Of a DNA stretch of 64,000 nt, positions 18,581-38,253 are shown in pieces. The position numbers were made by a program, and so were the translations under genes. This stretch comes from a virus: positions 1 to 64,000 of IMG/VR virus record IMGVR_UViG_3300042402_002564. One strand, 5' to 3'. Each line of letters starts with the position of its first letter. Within the stretch, counting starts at the first letter, position 1. The notes beneath the pieces are model-generated. The model was not told where the DNA came from. It was given only the letters and a program-made list of their open reading frames with translations, and ran no database searches.

Positions 18581-21500
18581 ATGGCTGATTTTAGATTAGG
18601 GAGACTAAAATTCAACTGGAGAGGCGAGTGGGCACCCAGTACTGCTTATGTTATTGACGACATTGTAAAATTTGGTGCAAATACTTATGTTTGTACTACA
18701 AACCATACTTCTTCTTCTTCAGAACAAGTATGGTATTCTGTAGACGTATCAAATTGGTCTTTACATACTGAAGGAGTACGAAATGTTGGTACTTATACTC
18801 CAGGGACTTTTTATAAAATTAACGATGTAGTTCTTGATGGTAATACACAGCGTAGAGTTACCTCAGGAATTGCTACTAATGCTGGTATTGGAAGTACAAA
18901 TACTACATTATATGTTTCTGGATTTAACGGTGAGGGAACTTATGACCCAGGCGAGATTTACCAAAGTGGAGATGTTGTAGTATTTAATGGTATTAGCTAC
19001 GTAGCTATTACTACTACAACTGCTGGAGTCGTACCTCCTGTTGAATTGGGAACAAAATGGAATGTTCTTGCTGATGGTATTAATGCTGCTGGAATTACTA
19101 CCTATCAAGGAAATTCAATTTATTATAAAGGAGATTTAGTAAGACTTGGTGGAAATACATATAGACTTAACGCGACTACTGCACAATATGTTAATCCTGC
19201 AATTGGTTCTACCATTGGAATTGGATCTACTGTTGTTGGTGTTGCAGTAACTGCTTGGGATTTATTTAATACTGGATTAAGATACGCTGGAACATATTCA
19301 TCAACTACTCAATATTTTGCAAATGACGTTGTAGAATATTCTTCATCTGCATATGTTGGTATAGGTTCAACTTCATTCCAAGGAATTGTTCCTGGAACAA
19401 ATGCTGCTATTTGGGGTGCCTTGGCAATTGGAGATTCCAATGCCCTACTAACCACAAAAGGTGATATTTTAATTAGAGATTCTTCTGCCCCATCTAGACT
19501 TGGAATTTCTACAATTCCTTATAAGTCTCTTGGTGTAAGTACATCGGGTGTTCCACAATGGATGACCATTGGTGATTCTACTCGTATTTACTACGTTGAT
19601 CCAGAACTTGGTTCTGATACTTATAATGGTAGTACACCTGATATGGCATTCAGAACTCTGAAGTATGCCTGTGATAATGCTAGTGCTGTAACATCTATCA
19701 CAAACTTTGTATATGATCCATTAACTGGTATCTCTACAATTACTGCTCCTTCGCACGGAATTCTATATCCAAATATTACCATTAGACTTGAGGATATTGA
19801 ATTTGAATGTCTGAGTGGTGGTAGAAGTTATAACGTTACTGGATTTACTTATGATAGAACATCTGGTATTGGTACTGTAACTGTTGGAACTGGAGCAACA
19901 GGAATTTCTCCTGGTACAGTAGTTAGACTTAAAGACTTAGAATTTACTTGTCCTGGTGGATCTGGAATTACAACTACAATATTCCCAGATGGTACAAGAG
20001 CTCAAGGACCTAATTTCACAGTAACTTCTGTTAATAGTTCAACATCATTTGCAGTAAACGTTGGTGTTTCTACAATCAACCACATTTATGTAAGTGGTGG
20101 TAATGCATTTGTTGGATTTGATACCACAGTATTCCCAAGAAATGTAGTTGAATCTTATTTTACAGTAAGTGAAATTGTAGATAATAATACTATTAAAGTT
20201 AATGCTGGACTATCTACAATTTATCACAATTATGTAAGTGGTGGTCACGTAATTAACCTTTCACCTGCAGTTGTTAAGTTATCTGCATCTGAATTTGCTG
20301 AGCAACTTCCAATTACTGTTCCAGCATTTACAAGCATCGTTGGATCTACTCTTAGAGCGTCTAAGATTCGTCCTGCTGCTGGTTTATCAACTGATGGTAC
20401 TACTCCAAATAATCGCCAGACAATGTTTAGATTGTCTGATGCAACAACAATTCAAGGTCTGAATGTATCTGGTCTTGTTGGATTTAATTATGACGTTAAC
20501 CGTCCTTATGAATTAGAAGCAAGTACAGTTAGAACTGGTGTTGGAACAACTGCTTGTGGTGTTTACTTTGCATTCAATCCAAGTTCACCAATTTTAAATA
20601 AATCACCTTACGTTAAGGATTGTACTTCATTTGGTGATCCAGATCCTAATGGTTATGGTGGTGCTGGCGTCGGTGTATTCATTGATGGAGGAGTGCATAA
20701 TGAAGGTGCCAAGACAATGGTATTCGATGCATATACCAATGTTCTGAGTGATGGTGCTGGATTCATTCTTGATAGGGATGCTGGTGCAGAAATTGTATCT
20801 TGCTTTACCTATTATTGTAGATGGGGTTACTATTCTGGTGGTGGATCTAGAATTCGTTCTGTCGCTGGTAACAACTCTTATGGTGATTATGGTGTTGTCT
20901 CTTCTGGATTCTCTACATCAGAAACTCCAAGAACTGGTAGAGTCTTTGGTGATAGAGCAGATACCGTTGTTGGAACTATAAGTGGAACTATCGGCGTCGG
21001 TATGACAATGATTGGTGAAACCTCTGGTGCAAGAGCAACCTTCATTAATGATCAAACCAGTGCAGATAGAATTTACTTCAAGTATTGGCCTGGTTATGGT
21101 GCTACAGGTATTGGTACAACATCATTTGTCAATGGTGAGTGGGTAACATTTATTGGAGCTGGTACAACTGGTGCTCTTAGAATCGCTACTGCTGCTGGTT
21201 CAGTATCTGGACAAAAGGGTGTTATTATTGAACTTGATGAAGTTGATGGTAATAATTTACCATTAGTTGGTGATGCTATCGGATTTACTACAACTGGAAT
21301 TGGTAGTGATAGAACGGGTGGGGAAGTAAGATACTATATTATTAATAATGTAACTGGATTTACTTCATCGTATACTCAGTACCGTGGTTCTAGTGGATTA
21401 TCTTCAGTAACTTATAACAATAGAGTTACCATTACAATTTCTCCTGAAAAAGGTGGTGCTACTCCTGATACAAGATCTACTTATCTATCTGGTGTTGGTA

Positions 21501-22369
21501 CTGCTTCTGGTGGTTCATTCGTAGACATTAGAACTAAGTTCTCTAATGCTCGTTTAACTGGTCACGACTTCTTATCTGTTGGTACTGGAAACAAAGCTGA
21601 AACAAATTATCCTAACGTTGACGAATCAACTGTTCAACAGGGTAATGAGACAAATACATTTGGTCCAGGTAAAGTATTCTATGTATCTACTGACCAAGGT
21701 GGTAACTTCCGTGTAGGTGATCTCTTCTCGGTTAACCAGTTAACTGGTGCTGCAACTCTTGATGCTTCTGCATTCAACCTGTCTGGTCTTACAGAATTGA
21801 GACTCGGTTCTCTTGGTGGTCAGATTGGTGAAGCAATTAATGAATTCTCATCTGATGAGACAATGAGTGGTAATTCCAATACTGCTTGTCCTACTGAGTA
21901 TGCAGTTCGTGGATATCTTACCAGAGATAAGATGGGTAGTGAGGCTATGGTTCCTCCTACAGGAACTACTGCTGAAAGACCTGGTGTTGGCAACTTAATT
22001 GAAGGTCAATTCCGTTACAACACTGATCTTAAAACTCCAGAATATTATGATGGAACTCAATGGATTCCTGCTGGAAGATGGTTAACTGTGGATGTATCTA
22101 CAAATACTACTGCGTCATCTTGGAGAACTTACTTCTGCAATACAAGTGGTGGTGCATTTACTTTAACACTTCCTGCTTCTCCAGTTAAGGGTGATGCAAT
22201 TAGGGTATTTGACGTTAATAATACCTTTGATACTAATAACTTAACAATTGGTAGAAATGGAAAACCAATCGGTGGACTTGCTGAAAACATGACAGTAACT
22301 TCTGAAGGTGCGTCATTTGAATTAGTATTCTTTGATAATACACAAGGTTGGAGAATCTTTACTGTTTAA
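18581..22369 (+). CDS. Large fibre with chitin-binding-like repeats and a right-handed beta-helix
   Basis: The 1262-residue protein opens with about five repeats of a W-x-x-x-x-Y-x-x-x-D-x-V-x-x-x-x-x-x-Y unit, such as WAPSTAYVIDDIVKFGANTY and TYDPGEIYQSGDVVVFNG. This resembles CBM5/12-type carbohydrate-binding modules. From about residue 336, YYVDPELGSDTYNG followed by AFRTLKYAC is typical of the start of a pectin-lyase-like beta-helix. Such helices are common in phage tailspikes that bind or cut polysaccharide. The last 80 residues are shared with the small protein at 17750. A strong terminator follows. Enzymatic activity cannot be confirmed. Confidence 0.75.
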   Translation: MADFRLGRLKFNWRGEWAPSTAYVIDDIVKFGANTYVCTTNHTSSSSEQVWYSVDVSNWSLHTEGVRNVGTYTPGTFYKINDVVLDGNTQRRVTSGIATNAGIGSTNTTLYVSGFNGEGTYDPGEIYQSGDVVVFNGISYVAITTTTAGVVPPVELGTKWNVLADGINAAGITTYQGNSIYYKGDLVRLGGNTYRLNATTAQYVNPAIGSTIGIGSTVVGVAVTAWDLFNTGLRYAGTYSSTTQYFANDVVEYSSSAYVGIGSTSFQGIVPGTNAAIWGALAIGDSNALLTTKGDILIRDSSAPSRLGISTIPYKSLGVSTSGVPQWMTIGDSTRIYYVDPELGSDTYNGSTPDMAFRTLKYACDNASAVTSITNFVYDPLTGISTITAPSHGILYPNITIRLEDIEFECLSGGRSYNVTGFTYDRTSGIGTVTVGTGATGISPGTVVRLKDLEFTCPGGSGITTTIFPDGTRAQGPNFTVTSVNSSTSFAVNVGVSTINHIYVSGGNAFVGFDTTVFPRNVVESYFTVSEIVDNNTIKVNAGLSTIYHNYVSGGHVINLSPAVVKLSASEFAEQLPITVPAFTSIVGSTLRASKIRPAAGLSTDGTTPNNRQTMFRLSDATTIQGLNVSGLVGFNYDVNRPYELEASTVRTGVGTTACGVYFAFNPSSPILNKSPYVKDCTSFGDPDPNGYGGAGVGVFIDGGVHNEGAKTMVFDAYTNVLSDGAGFILDRDAGAEIVSCFTYYCRWGYYSGGGSRIRSVAGNNSYGDYGVVSSGFSTSETPRTGRVFGDRADTVVGTISGTIGVGMTMIGETSGARATFINDQTSADRIYFKYWPGYGATGIGTTSFVNGEWVTFIGAGTTGALRIATAAGSVSGQKGVIIELDEVDGNNLPLVGDAIGFTTTGIGSDRTGGEVRYYIINNVTGFTSSYTQYRGSSGLSSVTYNNRVTITISPEKGGATPDTRSTYLSGVGTASGGSFVDIRTKFSNARLTGHDFLSVGTGNKAETNYPNVDESTVQQGNETNTFGPGKVFYVSTDQGGNFRVGDLFSVNQLTGAATLDASAFNLSGLTELRLGSLGGQIGEAINEFSSDETMSGNSNTACPTEYAVRGYLTRDKMGSEAMVPPTGTTAERPGVGNLIEGQFRYNTDLKTPEYYDGTQWIPAGRWLTVDVSTNTTASSWRTYFCNTSGGAFTLTLPASPVKGDAIRVFDVNNTFDTNNLTIGRNGKPIGGLAENMTVTSEGASFELVFFDNTQGWRIFTV

Positions 22370-22435: not shown

Positions 22436-23218
22436 ATGGCATCATACTCAAGTTATAAAAAAATTTTAACAGAAAGTATAGTAGCAGGTTCTATTCCAGA
22501 ATCTAAAATTAGTTCTACTGCTCTGAAAAATTACACTGTTCAGTGGATTCGTGGTGGATTAGGTGCAGCATCTGGTGGTTGCTGCTGTCTTTGGACAGTT
22601 CCTTCTGGTGTAAGAAGAGTTACATTTGAACTTTGGGGTGCTGGTGGTAATGGTAGTGGTGCTTGCTCTAATGGTAGGTGTCAACATTGGGCTGGTGCTC
22701 AGGGAGGATACTATAACTCAAGAACAATTTCTGTTACTCCTGGATGGACATATACCGTATGTGCTGGTGGAGTATTTCCTTGTTGTCAATTTGATTGTGT
22801 TGGTTGTACTGGATGTGCTTCATTTATTACTGGATGTAATTTAAGTAACTTTTGTGCTGCTGGTGGTGTTGGTGGATGTGCTAATGCTGATTGGTCAGAA
22901 AAATGTAATTCTGATTGGGGTGCATGTTGTCTAGTACCTGGTGGATGGGGCGGTGATTTTGGAATGGGTAACCATCGTGGAGCATTTACTGGTTCATTTG
23001 CTTGCCATTGCTATCGTCATAAGTTTTGTTCTAGTGGCGGACCATTCTTAGGAAGTCCTGGAGTAGTTGGTGGATTGACTGAATGTTGGATTCGATGCGG
23101 ATGTTGGTCAGTTCCTTATAGTGCTGGTGGGCAGAGTGCTATGACCACTTATTGTGGTAATGCCTGTGGCCAAGGCGGAACGGGCGGTTCTGGTGTTGTT
23201 AAAATTACATATTTTTAA
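22436..23218 (+). CDS. Cysteine-rich glycine-rich virion protein, copy 1
   Basis: The 260-residue protein contains about 25 Cys by my count and many Gly, Trp and His. Its core has CCCLWTVP (about 49-56), ELWGAGGNG (the glycine-rich tail-fibre-type domain), repeated C-x-x-C pairs (DCVGCTGC), SNFCAAGGVGGCAN, HCY and RCGCWSVPY. It ends with GQGGTGGSGVVKITYF. Phage fibre tips of the glycine-rich type share the LWGAGG motif, but the cysteine load here is exceptional. It could be disulfide-linked after release or bind metal. It is the first of three tandem homologues and lies in a late transcription unit next to a fibre-assembly protein. Confidence 0.7.
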   Translation: MASYSSYKKILTESIVAGSIPESKISSTALKNYTVQWIRGGLGAASGGCCCLWTVPSGVRRVTFELWGAGGNGSGACSNGRCQHWAGAQGGYYNSRTISVTPGWTYTVCAGGVFPCCQFDCVGCTGCASFITGCNLSNFCAAGGVGGCANADWSEKCNSDWGACCLVPGGWGGDFGMGNHRGAFTGSFACHCYRHKFCSSGGPFLGSPGVVGGLTECWIRCGCWSVPYSAGGQSAMTTYCGNACGQGGTGGSGVVKITYF

Positions 23219-23230
23219 GGAGCAAAATCA

Positions 23231-24028
23231 ATGGCAACTTATGCAAGTTACAAAAAAGTAGATGCGGTATCTATACCAGAAAGATCCTTAACTAATGATA
23301 ATTTTTCACCAACTACTAGAAAGACTTTTGGTGTAAAATGGTTTTTTGGACCACCAGAAGCTTGTTCTCAAGGTTGTTGCTGTCTCTGGACTGTACCAAC
23401 TAATGTAACTAAACTTTTTATTGAACTTTGGGGTTCTGGTGGAAGTGGACATGGAGCATGTTCTTGCAGTAGATGTCACCACTATAAAGGTGCTGGTGGT
23501 GGACAATACAATTCTAAAATGATTACTACTGTCCCAGGATGTCAATATACAGTTTGTGCTGGTGGAAATGGAAACTGTTGCCGTTTTGAATGTATAGGAT
23601 GCTGTGGATGTGTATCTTATATGAATGGATTTAATTTAAGTAACTTCTGTGCCCTTGGTGGATCTCCTGGATGTGCTAATACCGATTGGACTACTGAATG
23701 TAATTCTGCATGGGAATGTTGTGTTCAAGGTGCCTATAACGGAGGAGATTTTGGATATGAAAATCATGCAGGAACTTTTGGTGGTGTTGAATGGTGGTTT
23801 ACAGTTGGATTCTGCCATTGTCATATTCAAGAAACACAACCAAGGTCTGCACCATTAATTGGAACTACCGTACAACAGTCAATTAATTATTGCTGGATGC
23901 GTTGTGGATGCTGGACTGTTCCTTATGGGCATGGTGGACAAGGTGCAATGACTTCTTATTGTGGTACTAGTTGTTGTGGGCAAGGTGGTATGGGTGGCCC
24001 TGGTCTTGTTAGAATTACATATTTTTAA
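23231..24028 (+). CDS. Cysteine-rich glycine-rich virion protein, copy 2
   Basis: The 265-residue paralogue of the preceding gene has about 28 Cys. It keeps CCCLWTVP, ELWGSGGSG, the C-x-x-C cluster (ECIGCCGC), SNFCALGGSPGCAN, CHCH, RCGCWTVPYGHGGQG and the C-terminal GGPGLVRITYF. The first eleven residues (MATYASYKKVD) are identical to copy 3, while the centre differs in spacing and charge. The gene is preceded by an AAGGAG site eight bases from the ATG, and the same intergenic layout recurs before copy 3. This shows tandem duplication. Confidence 0.7.
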   Translation: MATYASYKKVDAVSIPERSLTNDNFSPTTRKTFGVKWFFGPPEACSQGCCCLWTVPTNVTKLFIELWGSGGSGHGACSCSRCHHYKGAGGGQYNSKMITTVPGCQYTVCAGGNGNCCRFECIGCCGCVSYMNGFNLSNFCALGGSPGCANTDWTTECNSAWECCVQGAYNGGDFGYENHAGTFGGVEWWFTVGFCHCHIQETQPRSAPLIGTTVQQSINYCWMRCGCWTVPYGHGGQGAMTSYCGTSCCGQGGMGGPGLVRITYF

Positions 24029-24040
24029 GGAGTAAATTCA

Positions 24041-24820
24041 ATGGCAACTTATGCAAGTTACAAAAAAGTAGATGGTTCTTCTATCGTTGATGGTAGTATA
24101 AATGAAGATCGTATTTCATTGAGTTCTTTTGCTACATGGTCCGTCCAATGGATTTATGGGCAACCTTGTTTTTGTTCTACTGGTTGCTGCTGTCTTTGGA
24201 CAGTTCCTTCTAATGTAAGAAGAGTCTATTTTGAACTATGGGGTGCTGGTGGAAACGGTCATGGTGCCTGCTCTAACGGAAGATGCCAACATTATGCTGG
24301 TGCAGGCGGCGGATATTATAACGCTAAGATGATAGATACTGTACCAGGATGTCAATATACTATTTGTGCTGCTGGAGTGTTTCCTTGCTTAACTAATGAA
24401 TGTATTGGTTGTCAAGGATGTTCTTCTTATATAACTGGATTTAATTTAAGTAATTTTTGTGCCATTGGTGGTATTGGTGGTTGTGCCAATGGAAGTTGGC
24501 AGGAAGCTTGTTTTTCTGATTTTTCTTGTTGTTTAGGACCAACTTCAAATGGTGGTGATTTTGGAATGGGTAATCATAGAGGTGGATTTCATCTGCACAG
24601 CTCTAACTGCCATTGTCAATGTCGTGGAGAAACACCTACTCCAGCACCTTTTATTGGTACACAAGTACATCAAAGCACTCAAGAATGTTGGATTCGTTGT
24701 GGATGCTGGACTGTTCCTTATGGACATGGGGGCCAAGGTGGAATGACTGCTTATTGTGGTGGTTGTTGTGGGCAAGGTGGAACTGGTGGTCCTGGATTAG
24801 TTAAGATTTCTTTCCTATAA
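24041..24820 (+). CDS. Cysteine-rich glycine-rich virion protein, copy 3
   Basis: The 259-residue third paralogue has about 27 Cys. It shares CCCLWTVPSNVRRV, FELWGAGGNGHGACSNGRCQH and the C-x-x-C cluster (ECIGCQGC) with copy 1, but its N- and C-termini match copy 2. This mosaic pattern suggests recombination between copies. It also has an HCQC element near residue 190. The stop codon overlaps the late promoter for the following gene. Like the others it has no signal peptide or membrane segment, so the cysteines must stay reduced, or bind metal, in the host cytoplasm until assembly or release. Confidence 0.7.
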   Translation: MATYASYKKVDGSSIVDGSINEDRISLSSFATWSVQWIYGQPCFCSTGCCCLWTVPSNVRRVYFELWGAGGNGHGACSNGRCQHYAGAGGGYYNAKMIDTVPGCQYTICAAGVFPCLTNECIGCQGCSSYITGFNLSNFCAIGGIGGCANGSWQEACFSDFSCCLGPTSNGGDFGMGNHRGGFHLHSSNCHCQCRGETPTPAPFIGTQVHQSTQECWIRCGCWTVPYGHGGQGGMTAYCGGCCGQGGTGGPGLVKISFL

Positions 24821-26866: not shown

Positions 26867-28003
26867 ATGAGATCAAAAGCATTTTTTATTAATGGTGGAG
26901 CTGGCAGAGTAATATGCTCTATCCCTGCATTTGAAAAATATGCAGAAACTCATGACGATTTTATAATCGTTTGTGAAGGAGGAACAGATTTCTATAAAGG
27001 TCATCCTATTTTACATAATAAAGTATTTGATAGTTGGCATAAAGGATTGTTTGAAAAAGAAATTAAACATAGAGATTGTATAAGTCCAGAACCATATAGA
27101 ATTTGGGAATATTACAATCAAAAATGTAATTTATCTCAAGCATTTGATATGATCATTAACAATCTTGAAGAACCTAGGGAACTTCAAGATCCAAAAATAA
27201 TTTTAAATAAAATGGAACTTTTACAGGGATATAATTCTGTAGAAGAAATAAAGGCAGGAACTGGTAAAGATAAGGTTTTGGTTGTTCAACCATTTGGTAG
27301 AAGTGTAGAACAAGTTGGTAATGATTTTATTGCAGATTCCACTTCACGAAGTTTTTCTCTTAATAATATTGTTGAAATTATTAATGAACTTAAGAAAGAT
27401 TATGCAGTAGTTATTATGAGTGAAATTCATTTTCCTCTTGAGAAAAATGAAGACAAATCTAAATATCGTGTTGCAAGACCTCAAATTACTGATATGAGAC
27501 TTTGGGCAAGTATTATTAATGCTGCCGATCACTTTTTGGGATGTGATAGTATGGGGCAACATATTGCTAAAGCATTTGGTAAAACTGCAACTGTTGTTCT
27601 AGGGTCTACATACCCCGAAAATATTTCTTATCCAAATTCAAAAGATTTTGATATTATTGATGCTGGACTTGATAGAAGAAAATATAGTCCTATTAGAATT
27701 TCAATAGATGAAGAAATTGATAGGTATAATGATGAAGCAATGGAATTAGACACAAAAAAAGTTCAAGAAGTAATTGCTTCCGTTAAAAAAAGAATGGGTA
27801 AATCTGTAGCTTATACTGGTGATTGGGTGCAAACTTCTTCACAACAATCAACATGTTGCCCCAAACCCCAAGATAAAATGGCAATATCCCCTGATATGAA
27901 AATGCCATCAAATCCAGTGTTAATGCCAAAAGAAAATAAAGGTTTTAGTGGAAAAGAATCTTTAGATAAAGAAATTAATAATATTTTAAAAAAACTTAAG
28001 TGA
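26867..28003 (+). CDS. Glycosyltransferase family 9 (heptosyltransferase-like)
   Basis: The 378-residue protein has a GT-B layout. It has an N-terminal FINGGAGRVICSIPAFEKYA, where GGAGRVICSIP resembles the GDxLxxxP nucleotide-sugar loop of GT9. In the C-terminal domain is FLGCDSMGQHIAKAFGKTATVVLGSTYPENISYP (split here into FLGCDSMGQHIAKAFGK and the following strand), the classic GT9 'D-S-x-x-x-H-x-A-x-A-x-G' donor site (about 224-250). GT9 enzymes usually transfer heptose from ADP-heptose to lipopolysaccharide. ADP-heptose synthesis genes follow at 31.3-35.0 kb, so the donor is probably ADP-heptose. The last 70 residues are low complexity and atypical. Confidence 0.75.
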   Translation: MRSKAFFINGGAGRVICSIPAFEKYAETHDDFIIVCEGGTDFYKGHPILHNKVFDSWHKGLFEKEIKHRDCISPEPYRIWEYYNQKCNLSQAFDMIINNLEEPRELQDPKIILNKMELLQGYNSVEEIKAGTGKDKVLVVQPFGRSVEQVGNDFIADSTSRSFSLNNIVEIINELKKDYAVVIMSEIHFPLEKNEDKSKYRVARPQITDMRLWASIINAADHFLGCDSMGQHIAKAFGKTATVVLGSTYPENISYPNSKDFDIIDAGLDRRKYSPIRISIDEEIDRYNDEAMELDTKKVQEVIASVKKRMGKSVAYTGDWVQTSSQQSTCCPKPQDKMAISPDMKMPSNPVLMPKENKGFSGKESLDKEINNILKKLK

Positions 28004-28012
28004 GGTAATTAA

Positions 28013-29806
28013 ATGACTCAATGGATTGCTGCTATTGCTAGAGGTCACAATTCTGGCGTGTGTTTATTAAAAGATGGTGAATTAGTTTTTTCTATTGAAG
28101 AGGAAAGACTGTCTAGACATAAGTATGATGGTGGACCATTGGCTTCAATGGTTAAAATATTAGAGTATACTAATCGCTTAGACTATCTTGTTATCGCTCA
28201 TACACAACCATTATCTGATGCTGGTAAAATTGATTTTACTGGGGATGATATGTATACTGGTATGGCTAGAAAACTTGGGTTAATTGATAGAAAGGAAAAT
28301 AACTATGATCATCCTCAAGTTATTGATTTAAGTAAAATTCATCACAAGTTACATGCTTCTTGTGCTTTTTATCGTTCTGGTTTTGAGAGTGCTGTTGCTG
28401 TTATTGTTGATGGTGCAGGAACTTTTATTCCAATGAATTTTGGAAGACAGCAAGAAATGACATGGGAATTAGAAACTATTTTTAGTTGTGAATATCCTGC
28501 AAATATCAAAACTCTTTATAAACATCAGGGGGGTAGAGGTCCATGGGCTTCTGTCAAAATTCCCGAAATGTATAATCAGGATGAGGAATCTAATTATGAA
28601 TTGATTGTTGACGAAACTGCTGGTATTACAAAAGCATATGAAGCAGTAACTCAATATTGTGGATGGCCTCCTATTGAAGCTGGTAAAACCATGGGATTGT
28701 TCCCTTATGGAAAATTAAATGATAAAGTCCCAGAAATTTATACTGATTGTGGTGGGGGAAAATGGAAGAGTGCTGATAGAAATGTTATTGTCCCTACCTA
28801 TCCTAATGGTGCAATTGTTAATGAAGGAAGATTTGAATTTCTTGAAACTCCAGAAGAATTTGAAGATCTAACTCTTTTAGAAAATCGTCGTGACTTGGCG
28901 TATGCTATTCAAACACAATCACAACAGATGGTTCTTGATTTAATTCGTAAAGCAGTTCAAATGTCTGGAAATAATAATGTTGTTATTTCTGGTGGATATG
29001 GACTTAATTGTGTTGCAAACTATTGGTATCTTGAGCAACTTAAAGATGAAGGAATTAATCTTTATGTTGAACCAGTAAGTAATGATGCAGGAACTGCTAT
29101 TGGTGCTGCATTGCTTGCTCATCATAGACTTAATGAAGATGGTATTGTCAAATCTAGAATTGATAATCTTTATACTGGATTAGAATATACTTACATTCAA
29201 ACTGAAATTCAAAGTATTTGTGAAAAATACAATGTAACATCAGTATCGAGTTCAAATTATAAAGATATTGTTGAATTAATTACCCAAAAAAATATCGTTG
29301 CATTGTTCCAGGGAAGATCGGAGGCTGGTCCTCGTGCTCTTGGTAATCGTTCTATTCTTTATGATCCTAGAGATCCAGATGGTAAGGATCATGTGAATAG
29401 AATTAAAAGAAGAGAATACTTTAGACCTTTTGCAGGATCTATTTTGCAAGAGCACGTTCACGACTGGTTTGATCTAAGAGGAATGGAAGATTCTCCTTTT
29501 ATGATGTATGCAGTAAACTGCAAGGAAGGGATTGAGGAAAAAATTCCAGCAATTATTCACGTTGATTGTACTTGTAGAATACAGACAGTAACAGAAGAGC
29601 AAAATAAACATTATTACAATCTCATTTCTGAGTTCTATAATCAAACTGGTTGCCCAATTATTTTTAATACCTCTTTTAATCTTGGTGGAGAACCTTTAGT
29701 TGAAACCTTGGACGATGCGATCAGAACTCTTGCAAATAGTCTTATTGAATATTTGTATCTTCCAGAATATGAACTTTTAATTTATGTAAAAAATGAAAAA
29801 AATTAA
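28013..29806 (+). CDS. NodU/CmcH-type carbamoyltransferase
   Basis: The 597-residue protein is a full-length carbamoyltransferase. It has the N-terminal ATP-fold GHNSGVCLLKDGELVFSIEEERLSR, the metal-binding HHKLHA (about 109-114) and IVDGAG. A C-terminal YrdC-like/Kae1-type half has GPRALGNRSILYDPRDP and NTSFNLGGEPLVET. These enzymes use carbamoyl phosphate and ATP to carbamoylate hydroxyls on sugars or antibiotics. The gene lies in the GT9-halogenase-heptose operon and overlaps the halogenase start by 14 bases. The acceptor is probably a glycan made by neighbours. A second, more diverged copy is at 36661-38253. Confidence 0.9.
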   Translation: MTQWIAAIARGHNSGVCLLKDGELVFSIEEERLSRHKYDGGPLASMVKILEYTNRLDYLVIAHTQPLSDAGKIDFTGDDMYTGMARKLGLIDRKENNYDHPQVIDLSKIHHKLHASCAFYRSGFESAVAVIVDGAGTFIPMNFGRQQEMTWELETIFSCEYPANIKTLYKHQGGRGPWASVKIPEMYNQDEESNYELIVDETAGITKAYEAVTQYCGWPPIEAGKTMGLFPYGKLNDKVPEIYTDCGGGKWKSADRNVIVPTYPNGAIVNEGRFEFLETPEEFEDLTLLENRRDLAYAIQTQSQQMVLDLIRKAVQMSGNNNVVISGGYGLNCVANYWYLEQLKDEGINLYVEPVSNDAGTAIGAALLAHHRLNEDGIVKSRIDNLYTGLEYTYIQTEIQSICEKYNVTSVSSSNYKDIVELITQKNIVALFQGRSEAGPRALGNRSILYDPRDPDGKDHVNRIKRREYFRPFAGSILQEHVHDWFDLRGMEDSPFMMYAVNCKEGIEEKIPAIIHVDCTCRIQTVTEEQNKHYYNLISEFYNQTGCPIIFNTSFNLGGEPLVETLDDAIRTLANSLIEYLYLPEYELLIYVKNEKN

Positions 29807-31286
29807 TTCAGTAAAAAGAATAACTATTGTTGGTGGAGGTACTTCTGCATGGTTGAGTGCCGCCTTCTTTTTAAAACAATCACAGTTTGGTACAGAAATT
29901 GTAGTTATTGATAAAGAAAAGGGAAATCCTGTTGGAGTTGGTGAAGCAACATTACTTAGTTTTAAAACTTTTATGGATTTTTGTGGATTTCCTATTCAAT
30001 CCTGGTTTGATGAAATTGATGCTACTTTTAAATCGGGAATTCTATTTACAAATTGGAATAGACAAAATGATGACATTTGGCATCCTTTTTGTTTTCCTCA
30101 ATTTGATTTTTTAAAATCTTCTTTACTCAACTTATGGTCAAAAACTAATTTTGGTCTTAAAACACATGGATCTGCTTTATATGAATGTTCTGTAAAAGAA
30201 AACAAAATAGATACCAATAATATTGGAGCATATGCATTCCATATTGACTGTGGAAAATTGGTAAAATTCATTCAATCTCAAATAAAAAATAATATTAATT
30301 TTATAAATTCTGAAGTTATTGATATTATTAGGGATGATACTGGTGATATAAATCATTTATTATTGGTAAATGGTCAAAAAATAGAATCTGATTTGTATAT
30401 TGATTGTACTGGATTCAAAAGATTTTTGGGATCCAAACCAAAAACTGTAAATCTTAGAGATAGACTATTTTGTGATACTGCAATTGCTGGGCATATTCCT
30501 TATAAAAATGAATCTGAGGAAATGCGTCCATATGTAATTTGTGATGCTGTAGAACATGGTTGGATTTGGAATATACCAGTTAGGTCTAGAATAGGTTCTG
30601 GTTTAGTTTTTAATAGATCTGTAACTGACATAGAAGAAGCAAAAGAGTATTTTGTAAATTATTGGGATAATAGAGTAGAAAAAGAATCGTTAAAAGTTAT
30701 TGATTGGACTCCGTATTACCATGAAAATTTTTGGGATAATAATGTGGTGTCTATTGGATTATCTGCTGGATTTATTGAACCATTAGAAAGCACTGGTGTT
30801 GGTCTTATTTGTGCGGGTATTTTAGAACTCGGGGATAGATTGAAAAAAGCACATTATAATTATGATGATATTAATCTATACAATTGTAAGATGAAATGTT
30901 TTTTTGAATCTGCAGTTGATTTTGTTAATATGCATTATTCCAATACAAATAGATTTGGTAAATTTTGGGAATGGGTAAAAAGAGAACATACGGTTAATAC
31001 TACACATCAATATTTTATTGATGAATTTTTAAATAACCCATATAGTTTTCCTCATGGTGGAACAGAAATGTTTGATGGGAATAACTGGAGTATATGGCTT
31101 TGTCAATTAAATACATCTTTTATTCCAAAATTTGCAGATGGTGTTGATACCAAACATTCATATGAGTTAGTAAATAATTTTCATGATAATGAAATAGAAA
31201 AACATAAAAATTCTATTTTGCACTCGGAATTTGTTAAAACCTTTACTAAAGAATTAAATGGAAAAAATGGAAAAAATATTCGTTAA
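29793..31286 (+). CDS. Flavin-dependent tryptophan halogenase
   Basis: The 497-residue protein has the FAD-binding IVGGGTSAWLSAAF near the N-terminus and GVGEATLLSF. The active-site lysine is in ATFKSGILFTNW (about residue 81). The halogenase-specific W-x-W-x-IP motif appears as WIWNIP (about 256-261), and SAGFIEPLESTG follows. All signature residues are intact, so halogenation with chloride or bromide and reduced flavin is likely. It could act on free tryptophan, a peptide or another aromatic. It overlaps the carbamoyltransferase start-to-end by 14 bases and the heptose gene by 29. This ties it to the surface-modification operon. No flavin reductase is in the window. Confidence 0.9.
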   Translation: MKKINSVKRITIVGGGTSAWLSAAFFLKQSQFGTEIVVIDKEKGNPVGVGEATLLSFKTFMDFCGFPIQSWFDEIDATFKSGILFTNWNRQNDDIWHPFCFPQFDFLKSSLLNLWSKTNFGLKTHGSALYECSVKENKIDTNNIGAYAFHIDCGKLVKFIQSQIKNNINFINSEVIDIIRDDTGDINHLLLVNGQKIESDLYIDCTGFKRFLGSKPKTVNLRDRLFCDTAIAGHIPYKNESEEMRPYVICDAVEHGWIWNIPVRSRIGSGLVFNRSVTDIEEAKEYFVNYWDNRVEKESLKVIDWTPYYHENFWDNNVVSIGLSAGFIEPLESTGVGLICAGILELGDRLKKAHYNYDDINLYNCKMKCFFESAVDFVNMHYSNTNRFGKFWEWVKREHTVNTTHQYFIDEFLNNPYSFPHGGTEMFDGNNWSIWLCQLNTSFIPKFADGVDTKHSYELVNNFHDNEIEKHKNSILHSEFVKTFTKELNGKNGKNIR

Positions 31287-31674
31287 TGGTACTTTTGATA
31301 TTTTGCATAAAGGACATTTAGAACTGTTAAATTATGCCAAATCAAAAGGAGATATTTTATATGTTGCCATTGATACTGATCAGAGAGTTAAAGAAAAAAA
31401 AGGAGAATCAAGACCAATTAATAATCAAAATGATAGGGCAGAATTTTTAATTAATTTAAAATCTGTAGATTATGTTGTTCTATTCAATACAGATGAAGAA
31501 TTAGAATATTTGGTTAAAAGTATAGAACCTGATATAATGGTTGTAGGTTCAGATTGGATTGGTAAAACAGTTATTGGATCTGAACATGCAAAAGAATTAA
31601 AATTTTTTAATAGATTAGATGGATACTCAACTACAAACACAATTGAACGTATTGTTAATAGGGGAGAAGTGTGA
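31258..31674 (+). CDS. hldC: Heptose-1-phosphate adenylyltransferase (HldC/RfaE C-domain)
   Basis: The 138-residue protein is a stand-alone nucleotidyltransferase of the HldE C-terminal type. It has FVNGTFDILHKGHLELL, with the H-x-G-H catalytic motif, then DTDQRVKEKKG and a terminal YSTTNTIERI (the ISTT-like motif). It activates D-glycero-beta-D-manno-heptose-1-P with ATP to ADP-heptose. A second in-frame ATG at 31267 is an equally good start. In most bacteria it is fused after the kinase domain. Here it is a separate gene placed before the kinase and overlapping it by 56 bases in another frame. Confidence 0.88.
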   Translation: MEKMEKIFVNGTFDILHKGHLELLNYAKSKGDILYVAIDTDQRVKEKKGESRPINNQNDRAEFLINLKSVDYVVLFNTDEELEYLVKSIEPDIMVVGSDWIGKTVIGSEHAKELKFFNRLDGYSTTNTIERIVNRGEV

Positions 31675-32425
31675 AGATGAATATCTTTATGGTGATGTAG
31701 AACGCATTAGTCCAGAAGCTCCAGTACCAATACTTAAGTATATTTGTACTGAAACTCATTCTGGAATGTCTTCTAATGTTAAAAATAATCTAGAATCTTT
31801 TGGTATTAATGTAGTTCATATAACCAATAAAGAAACTATTAAAAAAACTAGAGTAGTTCACAATGGTAGTAAACAACAACTTTTAAGAATTGATAAAGAT
31901 GTAAAAGTATCTCCGATTAAACCCTCTGAGGTTCGGAGTGCTTTTTTGCATTTTTCTTATGATGCAGTTGTTGTATCTGATTATGATAAAGGTCTTCTTA
32001 CAACTGACGACCTTAAAGTAATTTGTCAGAACTTTAATGGTCCTGTTTTTATTGATACTAAAAAACGGGATTTATTTACTGAAAAGAATGTAATTTTTAA
32101 AATAAATCAGAGAGAATATAATAATCTTATATCTTATCCAGAGGATGTACATTTAATTGTTACTATGGGTAGTGATGGAGTTAAATACTTGGGATATACA
32201 TATCCATCGGAAAAAGTAAATGTATTTGATGTTGTTGGTGCTGGTGATACCTTCTTAGCAGCATTTGTATACTCTTACTTGACATGTAAAGAAGATAGAT
32301 TTAGATTTTCTGAATCTATTAAATATGCAAATAAAGCAGCAGCAATTGCTGTTCAACATTTTGGTACATATACATTATCAGAAGATGATATTAGGAGTTT
32401 AAATAATGGCAATATATTGTATTGA
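31619..32425 (+). CDS. hldA: Heptose-7-phosphate kinase (HldA/RfaE N-domain, PfkB family)
   Basis: The 268-residue protein matches the kinase half of HldE. It has the typical YGDVERISPEAPVPI (about 24-38), KTRVV, LRIDKD, VVSDYDKG, the PfkB anion-hole motif VGAGDTFLAAF (about 204-214) and ANKAAAIAVQHFGT. It phosphorylates D-glycero-D-manno-heptose-7-P at C1. The N-terminus lies inside the adenylyltransferase gene. The ATG at 31619 gives a MDTQLQTQLN lead before the NVLLIGE strand, and a downstream TTG is an alternative. The protein is shorter than the roughly 315-residue bacterial domain, mainly at the N-terminus. Confidence 0.85.
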   Translation: MDTQLQTQLNVLLIGEKCEDEYLYGDVERISPEAPVPILKYICTETHSGMSSNVKNNLESFGINVVHITNKETIKKTRVVHNGSKQQLLRIDKDVKVSPIKPSEVRSAFLHFSYDAVVVSDYDKGLLTTDDLKVICQNFNGPVFIDTKKRDLFTEKNVIFKINQREYNNLISYPEDVHLIVTMGSDGVKYLGYTYPSEKVNVFDVVGAGDTFLAAFVYSYLTCKEDRFRFSESIKYANKAAAIAVQHFGTYTLSEDDIRSLNNGNILY

Positions 32426-32735
32426 TATTGATGGTACAATTTGTGAAAATGGAGCATGTAAAGTATGTGCTTATGAGGGAAGTATGCCTCATTTAGAACG
32501 AATTGAAAAAATCAATCAACTTTATGAAGATGGGCATACAATAAAATATTTTACTGCTAGAGGAATGGGTAGATATAATGATGATGCTCAAAAAGCGAAA
32601 GATAAATTTTATAATTTAACTAAAATGCAATTAGAATTATGGGGATGTAAATACCATGAATTGATAATGGGTAAACCATCAGCAGACTACTATATAGATG
32701 ATAAAGCAATAAAAGACAATGACTTCTTCAATTGA
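32406..32735 (+). CDS. HAD-superfamily phosphatase (capsule/heptose type)
   Basis: The 109-residue protein has all four HAD motifs. They are CIDIDGTIC (nucleophile Asp), FTARG (motif II), GKPSAD (Lys) and YIDDKA (motif IV). Short HAD proteins of this type sit in sugar-nucleotide operons. In this operon it could serve as the heptose-1,7-bisphosphate phosphatase (GmhB role) between kinase and adenylyltransferase. Its sequence is closer to the generic capsular HAD group than to classic GmhB, so this assignment is inference. It overlaps both neighbours by about 20 bases. Confidence 0.7.
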   Translation: MAIYCIDIDGTICENGACKVCAYEGSMPHLERIEKINQLYEDGHTIKYFTARGMGRYNDDAQKAKDKFYNLTKMQLELWGCKYHELIMGKPSADYYIDDKAIKDNDFFN

Positions 32736-33072
32736 ATTTGTTCCCAAAGGATGGGGATTTGAAAAGTGGATTGTAAATACAGAACAATATTGTGGTAAAC
32801 TTTTATATTTTGTAAAAGGTAGAAAGTGTTCTTGGCATTATCATAAAATTAAAGATGAAACTTTCTATGTTCAATCTGGATTATTGATACTTCATTATGG
32901 GTATGATGATGATATTAATTTAGCACAAAAAAGAACACTTAAAAAAGGAGAAAAATTCCATGTCCCAGTTGGACTTAGACATAGAATGTATGCCCTAGAA
33001 GATACTGAATTATTTGAATTTTCTACTCAACATTTTGAAGAAGATAGTTACAGGGTTATTAAAGGAGATTAA
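32719..33072 (+). CDS. Cupin-domain protein
   Basis: The 117-residue protein is a single cupin. It has WHYHKIKDETFYVQSG (metal ligands H-x-H and Glu, about 32-47), then KGEKFHVPVGLRHRMYAL with the distal His. Such small cupins in glycan operons are often sugar isomerases, epimerases or binding proteins. It overlaps the HAD gene by 17 bases and precedes a prolyl-hydroxylase-like gene. Its substrate is not evident. A sugar role is suggested by context only. Confidence 0.75.
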   Translation: MTSSIEFVPKGWGFEKWIVNTEQYCGKLLYFVKGRKCSWHYHKIKDETFYVQSGLLILHYGYDDDINLAQKRTLKKGEKFHVPVGLRHRMYALEDTELFEFSTQHFEEDSYRVIKGD

Positions 33073-33075
33073 ATT

Positions 33076-33657
33076 ATGGATATAAAAGATTTAGTTGTTG
33101 AATTTAATAATTTTATATCTGATCAAAAATGTGATGAGATGATAGAATGGTTTGAAACTAATTCTCATCTACAATTAGATGGAACTGTTTCTGGAACTTT
33201 AAATGGAAAAAATGATAATTATGTAATGATGGATTTTAAAAAAGCGAAGCAATCTAATCCATTACCAGAGGATCCAGTGTCTCATTTAATGACTAATATT
33301 ATATTTGATACATATAAAACTTATTCAGAAATAAGACCAGCACCTCAAACAAATATTTGTGCAAGAGATTATTCTATAAGAGTTTATAAAAAAAATGAAG
33401 GTTATTTTAAACCTCATGTTGATCAAGATGCTGGTGGTAATGTTACTAGGATTTTTGCAATTATAATGTATTTAAATGATGTTGTGGAAGGTGGGGAGAC
33501 AGAATTTCCACATTATGATATAAAAGTTAAACCAGAAAAGGGTAAAGTATTAATATTTCCTTGTAATTATTTATTTCCACATCAAGGTAATATGCCAATA
33601 TCTAATGACAAATACATTGCTACTTCATTTATCAATTATACGGATATAAAATGTTAG
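33076..33657 (+). CDS. Prolyl-4-hydroxylase-type 2OG-Fe(II) oxygenase
   Basis: The 193-residue protein fits the P4Hc domain well. SIRVYKKNEGYFKPHVDQDAGG has the H-x-D motif (about 114-116), IMYLNDVVEGGETEFP follows, then KGKVLIFPCNYLFPHQGNMP with the distal His, and KYIATSFINY supplies the 2OG-binding Lys/Ser region. It should hydroxylate a protein or small molecule using iron and 2-oxoglutarate. It overlaps the next oxygenase gene by seven bases. Cyanophages are known to carry such genes, but the target remains unknown. Virion fibres or glycan carriers are candidates. Confidence 0.87.
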   Translation: MDIKDLVVEFNNFISDQKCDEMIEWFETNSHLQLDGTVSGTLNGKNDNYVMMDFKKAKQSNPLPEDPVSHLMTNIIFDTYKTYSEIRPAPQTNICARDYSIRVYKKNEGYFKPHVDQDAGGNVTRIFAIIMYLNDVVEGGETEFPHYDIKVKPEKGKVLIFPCNYLFPHQGNMPISNDKYIATSFINYTDIKC

Positions 33658-34265
33658 AATACAATGTAACTAAACCGTTTGGTCCTATCATTTTTGAATG
33701 TTTTTGCCCACAAAATGTGGTGGATAATTTTAATAATTTCATTGATAATATGGATCAAGAAACAAAAGAACTATGTTCCTCTAAGCATAGTAAAGTTCAA
33801 GGATTTCCTGATCTATTATCAAGAGGATTTGAGATTGTATATTTGACAAGTGATCAATTAGATACTATTGGATTTTCATCTTTTATTGCTAATGCTTCTG
33901 AAGAATATATGAAAGTTCATGGTGTGAATAGTGCGGATATATATTTTAACAATTCACATTTTTCAGAGTTATTTGTTGATGTTTGGGTTAATAGATATTT
34001 TCAAAATGACTATACACCACCACATGATCATGCTGGACATATATCTGGAATAACGATATTGGATTTACCAGAAGATTCGGATTGGTATGATTTACATAAT
34101 TTGGAATTTATTTGGAATAATGAGCATCATAGACCTGAGCAGAAAATAGGAAAGACTTTTTTGTTTCCCAGTAACCTTATGCATTGGGTTACTAAACAAA
34201 AAAGTCTTTTAGAAAGAAGGACTATTAGTTTTAATTTACTTGTAAATACTCAGCAACAGACTTGA
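33651..34265 (+). CDS. 2OG-Fe(II) oxygenase-like protein (2OG-FeII_Oxy_5 type)
   Basis: The 204-residue protein shows a family-typical core. VDVWVNRYFQNDYTPPHDHAG (metal ligands H-x-H, about 115-130) is followed by GITILDLPEDSDW, and KTFLFPSNLMHWVTKQ supplies the distal His. RRTISFNLLVN holds the 2OG-binding Arg. It overlaps the P4H gene by seven bases and converges with the reverse-strand hldD gene, overlapping it by 35 bases. No terminator is visible between them. The substrate is unknown. Confidence 0.72.
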   Translation: MLEYNVTKPFGPIIFECFCPQNVVDNFNNFIDNMDQETKELCSSKHSKVQGFPDLLSRGFEIVYLTSDQLDTIGFSSFIANASEEYMKVHGVNSADIYFNNSHFSELFVDVWVNRYFQNDYTPPHDHAGHISGITILDLPEDSDWYDLHNLEFIWNNEHHRPEQKIGKTFLFPSNLMHWVTKQKSLLERRTISFNLLVNTQQQT

Positions 34266-35025
34266 AGTTATAATTTTTTAACCAACTCATATCTGCACAA
34301 GTATAAGTTTGATATTTACCAACTAAATGATCTGGGAAGGGAATGGTATTAATTTTACCATTCTCTTTTTTTGCAACTAATTCTGCAACCTCTTGGAATG
34401 AAATTGGATTTCCTGTGCCAATGTCATAAATTCCACTTGGTGCATCATTGTTTAAAACAATATCAACAATATCATCAACACAAACAAAGTCACGAAGAAA
34501 TTTGTCTGATCCTTCAAATAAATTAAGTTCTCCAGTTTCTCTAATTTCTTTGGTGAATTTACTAACTGGACTTGCTTGATTTCCTTTATGATCTTCTCCA
34601 TCACCGTACACATTAAAATAACGGAATCCCTGAATCAATTGGAATTGGTCTAAGTTATCTAATACACAATAATCAATTTGAAGTTTTGAAATTGCGTATT
34701 GATTTAATGGATTAATCTGCCCATTAGTGTTTCCGTATACTGATGCTGAAGATGCATACTTTACTGGAATTTTATATTCGATTGCTTTATTAAATAAGGC
34801 ACAAGAAAATGCTACATTATAATGCCATAATTTTTGTAAGTTTTTTTCTGTAGTCGATGATATTGCACCTTGATGTATGATAAGACTTACTTTGTCCCAA
34901 TCTTCAAATTCTCTTAATAATCTCCAAGAATCTTCTTGATCTATTAATAGTATGTCTTCATTTGTACTGATTTTATTTACAAAATGTTGACCAATAAAAC
35001 CAGATGATCCTGTAAGTATAATCAT
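34231..35025 (-). CDS. hldD: ADP-L-glycero-D-manno-heptose 6-epimerase
   Basis: This 264-residue short-chain epimerase converts ADP-D-glycero- to ADP-L-glycero-D-manno-heptose. It has the TGSSGFIGQH nucleotide motif, YASSASVYG and the catalytic NQYAISK (Y-x-x-x-K). It also has HldD-specific blocks: GFRYFNVYGDGEDHKGNQAS, FLRDFVCVDDIVDI, GIYDIGTGNPISFQEVA and IPFPDHLVGKYQTYTCAD. Together these make the HldD call much safer than a generic epimerase. It lies on the reverse strand, with an AGGAG site before its ATG, facing the heptose kinase operon. Its 3' end overlaps the oxygenase gene. It is slightly shorter than bacterial HldD (about 310). Confidence 0.88.
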   Translation of the reverse strand: MIILTGSSGFIGQHFVNKISTNEDILLIDQEDSWRLLREFEDWDKVSLIIHQGAISSTTEKNLQKLWHYNVAFSCALFNKAIEYKIPVKYASSASVYGNTNGQINPLNQYAISKLQIDYCVLDNLDQFQLIQGFRYFNVYGDGEDHKGNQASPVSKFTKEIRETGELNLFEGSDKFLRDFVCVDDIVDIVLNNDAPSGIYDIGTGNPISFQEVAELVAKKENGKINTIPFPDHLVGKYQTYTCADMSWLKNYNFKSVAEYLQVN

Positions 35026-36660: not shown

Positions 36661-38253
36661 ATGAGAATTTTATCAATTTTTGATGGTCATGATGCATCGG
36701 CAACTGTTTTAAATAATGGTGTCATCGAACATTATTTAAAAGAAGAAAGATTCTCTAAAGTAAAGAAGGACAAAAAGATAGACAATATATTTAAAATTTG
36801 TTTAGAAAATTTTGTAGATAAGTGTGACTATTTTATTTTTAGAACTAATGATACTAATGAAGTAAAGGATGATAAAAATAAAATAATTCAGCAAAAGAAT
36901 AAAAATATAATATTAATAAATTCTAATACTCATCATCACTTATATCATGCATCAATTGCTTTTTATAATAGTGGATTTGAAAGAAGCGTAGTGCTAGTAG
37001 TAGATTCTTCTGGAGCAATATTAAAAAATATGCATGAGTGTGAATCTGTTTATATTTTAGAATATCCAGATAAGATAACTCCAATTTATAAAAACCATCA
37101 TAGTTCTATTCCACAAAATTTAGATAAAAGTATTGATGGGTGTCGATACATTTGTAAATCACAATATGGAATAGGTAATTTATATGATGGTGTTGCAATG
37201 ATTATGGGGCAAACCATTGATGATTGTGGTAAGGCAATGGGGTTGTCATCATATGGGAATAGAATTCCAGATTTTATTAATTTTTTTGATAAGACAATAG
37301 ATGAACCAATAGTATTATTAAATGATGCTGAAGAAAGATTGTTTTTTAATTTAATTGACAATGGAAAGAATGTAAAAATTACAGAAGATAATTATCAGTT
37401 TTATGCTGATTATTGTCTTGAGGTTCAAGTTCAAACACAAGAAGCTATTTGTAAGTTAGTAAAAAATTCTATTGAAAAAACTGGTATAAAAAATGTCTGC
37501 ATAAGTGGTGGATATGGAATGAATATAATATCCAATCATTTATTAACTAAAAGATTTCCCAATATCAATTTTTATTTTGAACCTCTTTGTGATGATGGTG
37601 GGATATCTATAGGTGCAGCAATGTATGCATATAGAAAGATAACCAAAGATTCACAAATAATTCCAATAAAAAATACATTTGTTCATGGTTTTAAATATGA
37701 CATATCACAATATAAAGGAACTACTGTAGATATAAAACAACTTGCCAAAATTTTATATACCAATAAATCTGTTGCAATATATAATGATCTTGCTGAATCT
37801 GGGCAGCGGGCATTGGGCAATAGGTCTATTTTATTCAATGCGTTAAACCTTAATGCAAAAGAAATAGTTAATGGCATTAAAAAAAGAGAATGGTATAGAC
37901 CTTTTGCTGCTATAGTTTTGGAAGAGGATGCTGACCAATATTTTGATATGAGAGATTTAAAATCGAATCCTTTTATGACAGTGTGCTTTCCAGTAAAAAC
38001 TGATATAATTCCAGGTGTAACTCATGTCGATAAAACCTGTAGAGTCCAAACGGTTAATAGTGGACACTTGAAAGAACTTCTGCTAGAATTTAAAAAAATT
38101 AGCGGACATGGAATTCTTTTAAATACTAGTTTTAATCTTGCTGGGGAACCATTAGTAGAAACTCCTGAAGATGCATTTAAAACATTAAACAACTCATCTT
38201 TAGATTATCTTTGGTTTTATGAATCAAAGCAACTGTTTAATTCTTATTATTAA
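36661..38253 (+). CDS. NodU-type carbamoyltransferase, second copy
   Basis: The 530-residue protein has the same fold as the carbamoyltransferase at 28013. It starts MRILSIFDGHDASATVLNNG, then has HHHLYHASIAFYNSGF (metal site), VVDSSGA, GQRALGNRSILFN, RPFAAIVLEE and NTSFNLAGEPLVETPEDA. It is shorter by about 65 residues and clearly diverged, so it is not a recent duplicate. It would carbamoylate a different acceptor. It stands alone between the reverse-strand bilin reductase and a run of small genes. No ribosome binding site is obvious before the ATG. Confidence 0.88.
   Translation: MRILSIFDGHDASATVLNNGVIEHYLKEERFSKVKKDKKIDNIFKICLENFVDKCDYFIFRTNDTNEVKDDKNKIIQQKNKNIILINSNTHHHLYHASIAFYNSGFERSVVLVVDSSGAILKNMHECESVYILEYPDKITPIYKNHHSSIPQNLDKSIDGCRYICKSQYGIGNLYDGVAMIMGQTIDDCGKAMGLSSYGNRIPDFINFFDKTIDEPIVLLNDAEERLFFNLIDNGKNVKITEDNYQFYADYCLEVQVQTQEAICKLVKNSIEKTGIKNVCISGGYGMNIISNHLLTKRFPNINFYFEPLCDDGGISIGAAMYAYRKITKDSQIIPIKNTFVHGFKYDISQYKGTTVDIKQLAKILYTNKSVAIYNDLAESGQRALGNRSILFNALNLNAKEIVNGIKKREWYRPFAAIVLEEDADQYFDMRDLKSNPFMTVCFPVKTDIIPGVTHVDKTCRVQTVNSGHLKELLLEFKKISGHGILLNTSFNLAGEPLVETPEDAFKTLNNSSLDYLWFYESKQLFNSYY

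Follow-up and report, generated by a model that had tools for sequence, protein, structure and literature searches.

A cupin as the probable phosphoheptose isomerase of a cyanophage heptose cassette

The 64,000-base window analysed here is the first part of a 246,502-base IMG/VR virus record (IMGVR_UViG_3300042402_002564), and its flanks match T4-like cyanomyoviruses that carry psbA/psbD, zwf and gnd. A cassette at positions 26867-35025 encodes, in order, a GT9-fold protein, a carbamoyltransferase, a tryptophan-halogenase-like enzyme, HldC, HldA, a small HAD protein, a cupin, two 2-oxoglutarate (2OG)-Fe(II) oxygenases and, on the opposite strand, HldD (Table 1). Overlaps of some tens of bases between several of the reading frames are as expected for one operon. 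With good confidence, we read the cassette as a complete route from sedoheptulose 7-phosphate to nucleoside diphosphate (NDP)-heptose, together with enzymes that use NDP-heptose. The phosphoheptose isomerase of this route is probably the cupin, an assignment for which comparative genomics argues strongly. It is this assignment that is new, as phage heptose genes were already known and the cassette is annotated in many cyanophages.

In the proposed route, the cupin would convert sedoheptulose 7-phosphate to heptose 7-phosphate, HldA would phosphorylate C1, the small HAD would remove the 7-phosphate, HldC would add the nucleotide and HldD would epimerise C6. The GT9-fold transferase would then transfer the heptose to an acceptor, and O-carbamoylation would probably also take place. 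More broadly, we propose with fairly good confidence that phosphoheptose isomerases include a second class, unrelated to GmhA, to which the cupin belongs, and that this class has taken the place of GmhA in T4-like cyanophages, in Woesearchaeota, and in Planctomycetota, Binatota-like and other bacteria, acting in the ADP- as well as the GDP-heptose route. With the HAD replacing GmhB, no host enzyme would be needed after sedoheptulose 7-phosphate.

The cupin and GmhA in viral and cellular genomes

A preliminary description of this DNA held that only GmhA was missing from the pathway. When the whole 246,502-base record, which may be a fragment, was searched for GmhA (SIS_2/TIGR00441), there was no match at E<=1. 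The absence of the gene therefore stood, but the isomerase step is most likely not missing, as it is very probably supplied by the cupin. GmhA was also absent from 11 of 12 related phage records that were searched whole. GmhA (SIS-fold, TIGR00441) and the cupin share the proposed reaction and its place in both NDP-heptose routes, but they have unrelated folds, differ in length (approximately 192 and 117 residues, respectively), have no sequence match to one another and are largely mutually exclusive across genomes.

Among viral loci with adequate flanks, the cupin was present in 46 of the 47 anchored on HldA and in 26 of the 27 anchored on HddA, a kinase of the GDP-heptose route, while GmhA was found in none of either set (0/47 and 0/27). 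The median distance from cupin to kinase was 1.06 kb, and in the window the cupin gene adjoins hldA and the HAD gene. Conversely, 20 GmhA-anchored viral loci had a heptose gene nearby, and the cupin was present in just one of these, 5 kb away. In phages Bellamy (L010) and SynMITS9220M01, the cupin lies between an HddA-like kinase (NF049969 at 7e-83 in Bellamy) and an HddC-like guanylyltransferase, i.e. in a GDP-heptose route. The cupin would thus serve both HldA/HldC and HddA/HddC sets, and the isomerase and phosphatase steps are common to the ADP- and GDP-heptose routes.

HldC was found in 168 of 199 Planctomycetota genomes. GmhA was present in none of the 16 HldC-positive genomes that contain the cupin, and in 139 of the 152 that do not (Fisher p=7e-15). 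Four weaker cupin matches in Planctomycetota (<62 bits) were all in GmhA-positive genomes. In several phyla, 33 of 38 cupin-positive genomes contain HldC and 27 of these 33 lack GmhA; these cellular counts exclude several metagenome-assembled contigs, L015-L019 and L074 among them, that came up in the GTDB scan and are probably phage DNA. All or part of this cassette is present on contigs L015-L019, L024 and L074, which were binned in metagenome-assembled or single-cell genomes named Rhodobacteraceae, Planctomycetaceae, Euryarchaeota and Prochlorococcus and are probably of phage origin. No match to either GmhA or the cupin was obtained in 13 HldC-positive Planctomycetota (G039, G044, G052, G071, G134, G137, G164, G185, G194, G205, G209, G214 and G222), which may be incomplete genomes or may use a third isomerase.

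Gene fusions were found in Woesearchaeota, where the cupin is joined to HldA in one locus (L065, 9047-10378) and forms part of a GmhB-cupin-HldC fusion in another (L072, 9359-10870). As L072 has GmhB, HldA and HldC, the role left unfilled is that of the isomerase, and the cupin is not needed as a phosphatase. Elsewhere in cellular genomes, this cupin is accompanied by full-length HldE and HldC. Some Planctomycetota loci (L177-L180) seemed to encode long cupin fusions, but no second Pfam domain is present in these extended open frames, and they were not counted.

The cupin has a 3-His 1-Glu metal site (H40, H42, E47 and H88) that is invariant in 64 relatives, and the label 'cysteine dioxygenase' applied to it by PHROG and RefSeq is unsupported. 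It is more conserved than its neighbours, sharing 61-68% identity between phages where HldA shares 38-50%. The best Foldseek match to its AlphaFold2 model (pLDDT 96.2) was D-lyxose isomerase 7nzp, a structure with D-fructose (8.8e-10), and the next neighbours were CapF (Z 15.7), KdgF and phosphomannose isomerase (Z 15). A deeper sequence profile reached D-lyxose, D-mannose and L-ribose isomerases (7nzo at 2e-6, 2y0o at 1e-5), but quercetinase outscored these and other cupins also scored. Against the D-lyxose isomerase family PF07385 the cupin reached 13.3 bits, under the gathering score of 20.8, and some of its cellular relatives matched this family weakly. As non-isomerase cupins score as well, fold alone does not settle the function. 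However, D-lyxose, D-mannose and manno-heptose have the same C2-C4 configuration, and the reaction of GmhA is equivalent, for heptose, to the interconversion of mannose with fructose or of lyxose with xylulose, which puts a GmhA-type reaction within reach of the cupin fold. D-lyxose/D-mannose isomerases (2y0o, 7nzo and E. coli 3kmh) and phosphomannose isomerases (7zvm and 7zvy), which carry out aldose-ketose isomerisation of sugars with the matching C2-C4 configuration, resemble the phage cupin in fold and metal-site motifs, but they are only approximately 16-25% identical to it and have no heptose genomic link reported in the papers found.

CapF is among the closest structures, and the cupin could instead work downstream of activation, as an NDP-heptose epimerase or modifying enzyme comparable to RmlC-type epimerases or to the cupin domain of CapF. 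Cupins of capsule pathways carry out chemistry of this kind, and this one sits in a nucleotide-sugar cassette. However, there would be little reason for a downstream epimerase to exclude GmhA (0/16 versus 139/152), or to be shared by ADP and GDP routes that otherwise have little in common, and we consider this explanation unlikely.

The host could also bear on the isomerase step. The preliminary description referred to marine Synechococcus lipopolysaccharide (LPS) as lacking heptose and Kdo in published work, and this is reported for Synechococcus WH8102 and CC9311 (PMC4515613). It had also proposed a search for gmhA in the rest of the genome and in the host. Beyond the negative result for the record, 35 of 201 Cyanobiaceae genomes contained GmhA (at least 80 bits) and 166 did not, while HldC (at least 100 bits) was found in just six, one of them a single-cell genome with HldC on a phage-like contig. 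As HldC is absent from 195 and GmhA from 166 of the 201, the product is a foreign sugar for the majority of potential hosts, in agreement with the earlier suggestion, and most could not supply the isomerase. Genes for the cupin, HldA, HldC and HAD in a single-cell genome of Prochlorococcus (L024, L199 and L200) were not taken as evidence for a host pathway, as their contig looks like phage DNA (RecA/UvsX-like open reading frame). The 35 positive genomes would allow the phage to use the GmhA, or the sugar pool, of particular hosts while the cupin does something else. We regard this as very unlikely, as it fits poorly with the 166 genomes that lack GmhA and leaves unexplained both the replacement of GmhA by the cupin in Planctomycetota and other cellular genomes and the fusions with HldA and with GmhB and HldC.

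Several points weigh against the cupin as isomerase and against a complete cassette. Phage SynMITS9220M01 carries both the cupin and GmhA, and 5 of 59 viral cupin loci (L109, L112, L116, L148 and L157) had no HldA, HldC or HddA within the fetched DNA. The viral HldA and HddA queries were built from cupin-associated sequences and are not independent of phage lineage, and the phyletic counts and the Fisher p value are uncorrected for shared ancestry. Wide flanks were retrieved for 13 Planctomycetota loci, and in these the cupin has no hld genes beside it. Six of the 33 HldC-positive, cupin-positive genomes also have GmhA (at least 80 bits); in one of these (G024), GmhA appears to belong to one heptose cluster and the cupin to another (L060). 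By fold, non-isomerases such as CapF and KdgF match equally well, and the cupin fold is functionally promiscuous. Finally, the transferase has Arg14 at the position of the catalytic Asp13 of WaaC, an arginine that is invariant in 23 relatives in an N-terminal motif alignment, and its catalytic activity is uncertain.

The remaining steps of the route

Family and profile matches, along with the predicted GT9 fold, confirmed the HldC, HldA, HldD, HAD and GT9 genes named in the preliminary description. HldC contains the motifs GTFDILHKGH (HxGH) and STT, and its best NCBIfam match is rfaE_dom_II (125.3 bits, cut-off 181.5). The arginine at -5 of STT is present in the window HldC and in 45 of 62 sequences scored. 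This STTR5 feature is linked to CTP and UTP use (PMC11461863), which makes CDP- or UDP-heptose a possible product. The HldA family profile matched heptose kinase 4e84 at 1.1e-43 and ribokinase at 1e-11. HldA has a GAGDT motif at residues 207-211, and its TIGR02198 score of 142.7 bits is below the 345-bit cut-off. In alignment with 1eq2, HldD has the SDR fold, YxxxK (Y110 and K114) and the second catalytic lysine in HKG. The NCBIfam scores of the cassette heptose enzymes are under the curated equivalog cut-offs, as expected because the phage proteins are short and divergent, and sequence comparison assigns HldA, HldC and HldD to their respective families.

The low scores, and the fact that mannose, lyxose or mannose 6-phosphate is the substrate of isomerases among cupins of this type, would suit enzymes acting on non-heptose sugars, such as mannose- or lyxose-type ones, with heptose labels that are family names only, but this is most improbable when HldA is far nearer to heptose kinase than to ribokinase, HldC is present, HldD has its diagnostic motifs, the HddA/HddC variant exists, and the same cupin is paired with full-length HldE and HldC in cells.

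In the HAD protein, D7, D9, T50, K90, D98 and D99 are invariant in 27 relatives. Only the EcbF-BcbF and BT0820 HAD models matched it, and there was no match to GmhB/HisB-type or to GmhA models. It accompanies 39 of 47 viral HldA loci, and GmhB accompanies none of the 47. The preliminary description suggested that this protein performs the GmhB step; context supports the phosphatase role, but the protein is a member of the EcbF/phrog_1238 family and not GmhB. As this family also occurs in many enterobacteria and Acinetobacter phages outside the records matched by this HldA, it is with moderate confidence that we propose, from comparative genomics and context, the HAD as a stand-in for GmhB. The label 'phosphoheptose isomerase' attached to this HAD in phrog_1238, in GenBank entries and in many cyanophage records appears to be a propagated error, since the full HAD phosphatase catalytic motifs are present and GmhA models are unmatched.

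Transferase, carbamoyltransferase and neighbouring genes

The predicted structure of the glycosyltransferase places it in the GT9 fold, with matches to 3tov (Z 21.4), HepII (1psw; 18.9), TibC (18.6) and WaaC (17), and 11.8 for the next family. The original GT9 claim thus held for the fold (Z 17-21) but not for sequence, as there was no match to Pfam PF01075; TIGR02201 and RfaQ matches were far under cut-off and were not used. A donor-site-like DSMGQH at residues 227-232 is conserved. The carbamoyltransferase accompanies this glycosyltransferase in 20 of 22 loci, and WapO of Pseudomonas carbamoylates LPS heptose (PMC8005017), which together make O-carbamoyl-heptose a reasonable guess for the product. 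By analogy and from the neighbourhood, it may be supposed that the heptose is carbamoylated and that it is placed either on the tail fibres of the virion or on the host envelope.

The halogenase-like gene has a counterpart at the same place in phage S-SSM7, while P-SSM2 has none there. A second carbamoyltransferase is found outside the cassette (36661-38253), and some relatives' cassettes hold two or three. Three consecutive paralogous proteins of approximately 260 aa each, rich in cysteine and glycine (22436-24820), directly follow a large tail-fibre-like gene (18581-22369). In phage Sf-FS3, a large gene is likewise trailed by hypothetical proteins of similar size.

Table 1. Predicted features of the heptose cassette (window coordinates)
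Feature	Position	Strand	Basis
GT9-fold glycosyltransferase (phrog_8954), candidate heptosyltransferase	26867..28003	+	AlphaFold2 model pLDDT 79
NodU/CmcH-type carbamoyltransferase	28013..29806	+	PF16861 2.9e-61, PF02543 3.1e-26
FAD-dependent tryptophan-halogenase-like enzyme, optional cassette member	29793..31286	+	PF04820 2.1e-87
HldC, heptose-1-phosphate nucleotidyltransferase with STTR5-type arginine (RLDGYSTT)	31258..31674	+	TIGR02199 1.5e-36
HldA, heptose-7-phosphate kinase, PfkB family	31619..32425	+	TIGR02198 1.3e-41
Cap-less HAD phosphatase (EcbF-like), candidate heptose-1,7-bisphosphate phosphatase	32406..32735	+	EcbF-BcbF TIGR01689 2.1e-8
Cupin (phrog_7851), proposed non-orthologous phosphoheptose isomerase	32719..33072	+	Metal site, fold, phyletic pattern, fusions
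2OG-Fe(II) oxygenase, variable cassette member	33076..33657	+	PF13640 1.1e-12
2OG-Fe(II) oxygenase, variable cassette member	33651..34265	+	PF13759 2.4e-10
HldD, ADP-heptose 6-epimerase	34231..35025	-	TIGR02197 1.2e-63; E. coli HldD 1eq2 at 1e-43

Related cassettes and implications

No near-identical island DNA was found in the phage collection searched. The core order of glycosyltransferase, carbamoyltransferase, HldC, HldA, HAD, cupin and divergent HldD is kept in the Synechococcus phages S-SSM7, S-CAM1, S-CAM3 and Sf-FS3 and in the Prochlorococcus phage P-SSM2, where the cassette adjoins tail-fibre genes and, in most, is near the neck gene gp13. Rearranged versions are present in S-T4, Sf-CH8, S-SM2 and P-TIM68. 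Because phages isolated independently have this gene order, the arrangement is not due to chance.

The preliminary description took it as unusual for a cyanophage to have a heptose pathway, but deposited cyanophage genomes have contained gene sets of this kind for years. Co-occurrence of T4-GC 304, 305, 307 and 308 was noted in 2010, and a functional linkage suggested (PMC3037559). The families of HldC, HldA, the cupin and HldD found in the window are also those of these LPS clusters of P-SSM2, S-SM2 and S-SSM7. In that study GC 307, the cupin, was given no function, and deposited records call it a nucleotidyltransferase or a cysteine dioxygenase. Tang et al. 2024 (Science) assayed viral heptose enzymes and, according to two commentaries (PMC11461863 and PMC11573728), at least one set synthesised NDP-heptose in vitro. 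As in the window cassette, those enzymes are HldA/HldC-type and have the STTR5 motif. As summarised there, the survey detected no phosphatase in viruses, and the commentaries do not mention a cupin isomerase. Cyanophage S-SCSM1 also has a sugar isomerase, a mannose-6-phosphate isomerase of the type II MPI family (PMC9602691), but it is outside the 35 records matched by this cupin, and the paper mentions neither heptose nor a cupin. A search of the open-access literature returned nothing relevant on a cupin with heptose or phosphoheptose isomerase.

GmhA is a target for inhibitor design, so knowledge of an unrelated enzyme that replaces it would be useful. The cupin assignment fills a gap because of which the heptose gene sets of phages and archaea have seemed defective. 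Two labels in cyanophage genomes are also corrected: 'phosphoheptose isomerase' belongs to a HAD phosphatase, and the adjoining 'cysteine dioxygenase' to the likely isomerase. If the assignment is true, heptose synthesis becomes predictable in many genomes that currently count as heptose-negative, among them those of phages that would give a foreign sugar to hosts whose LPS contains no heptose.
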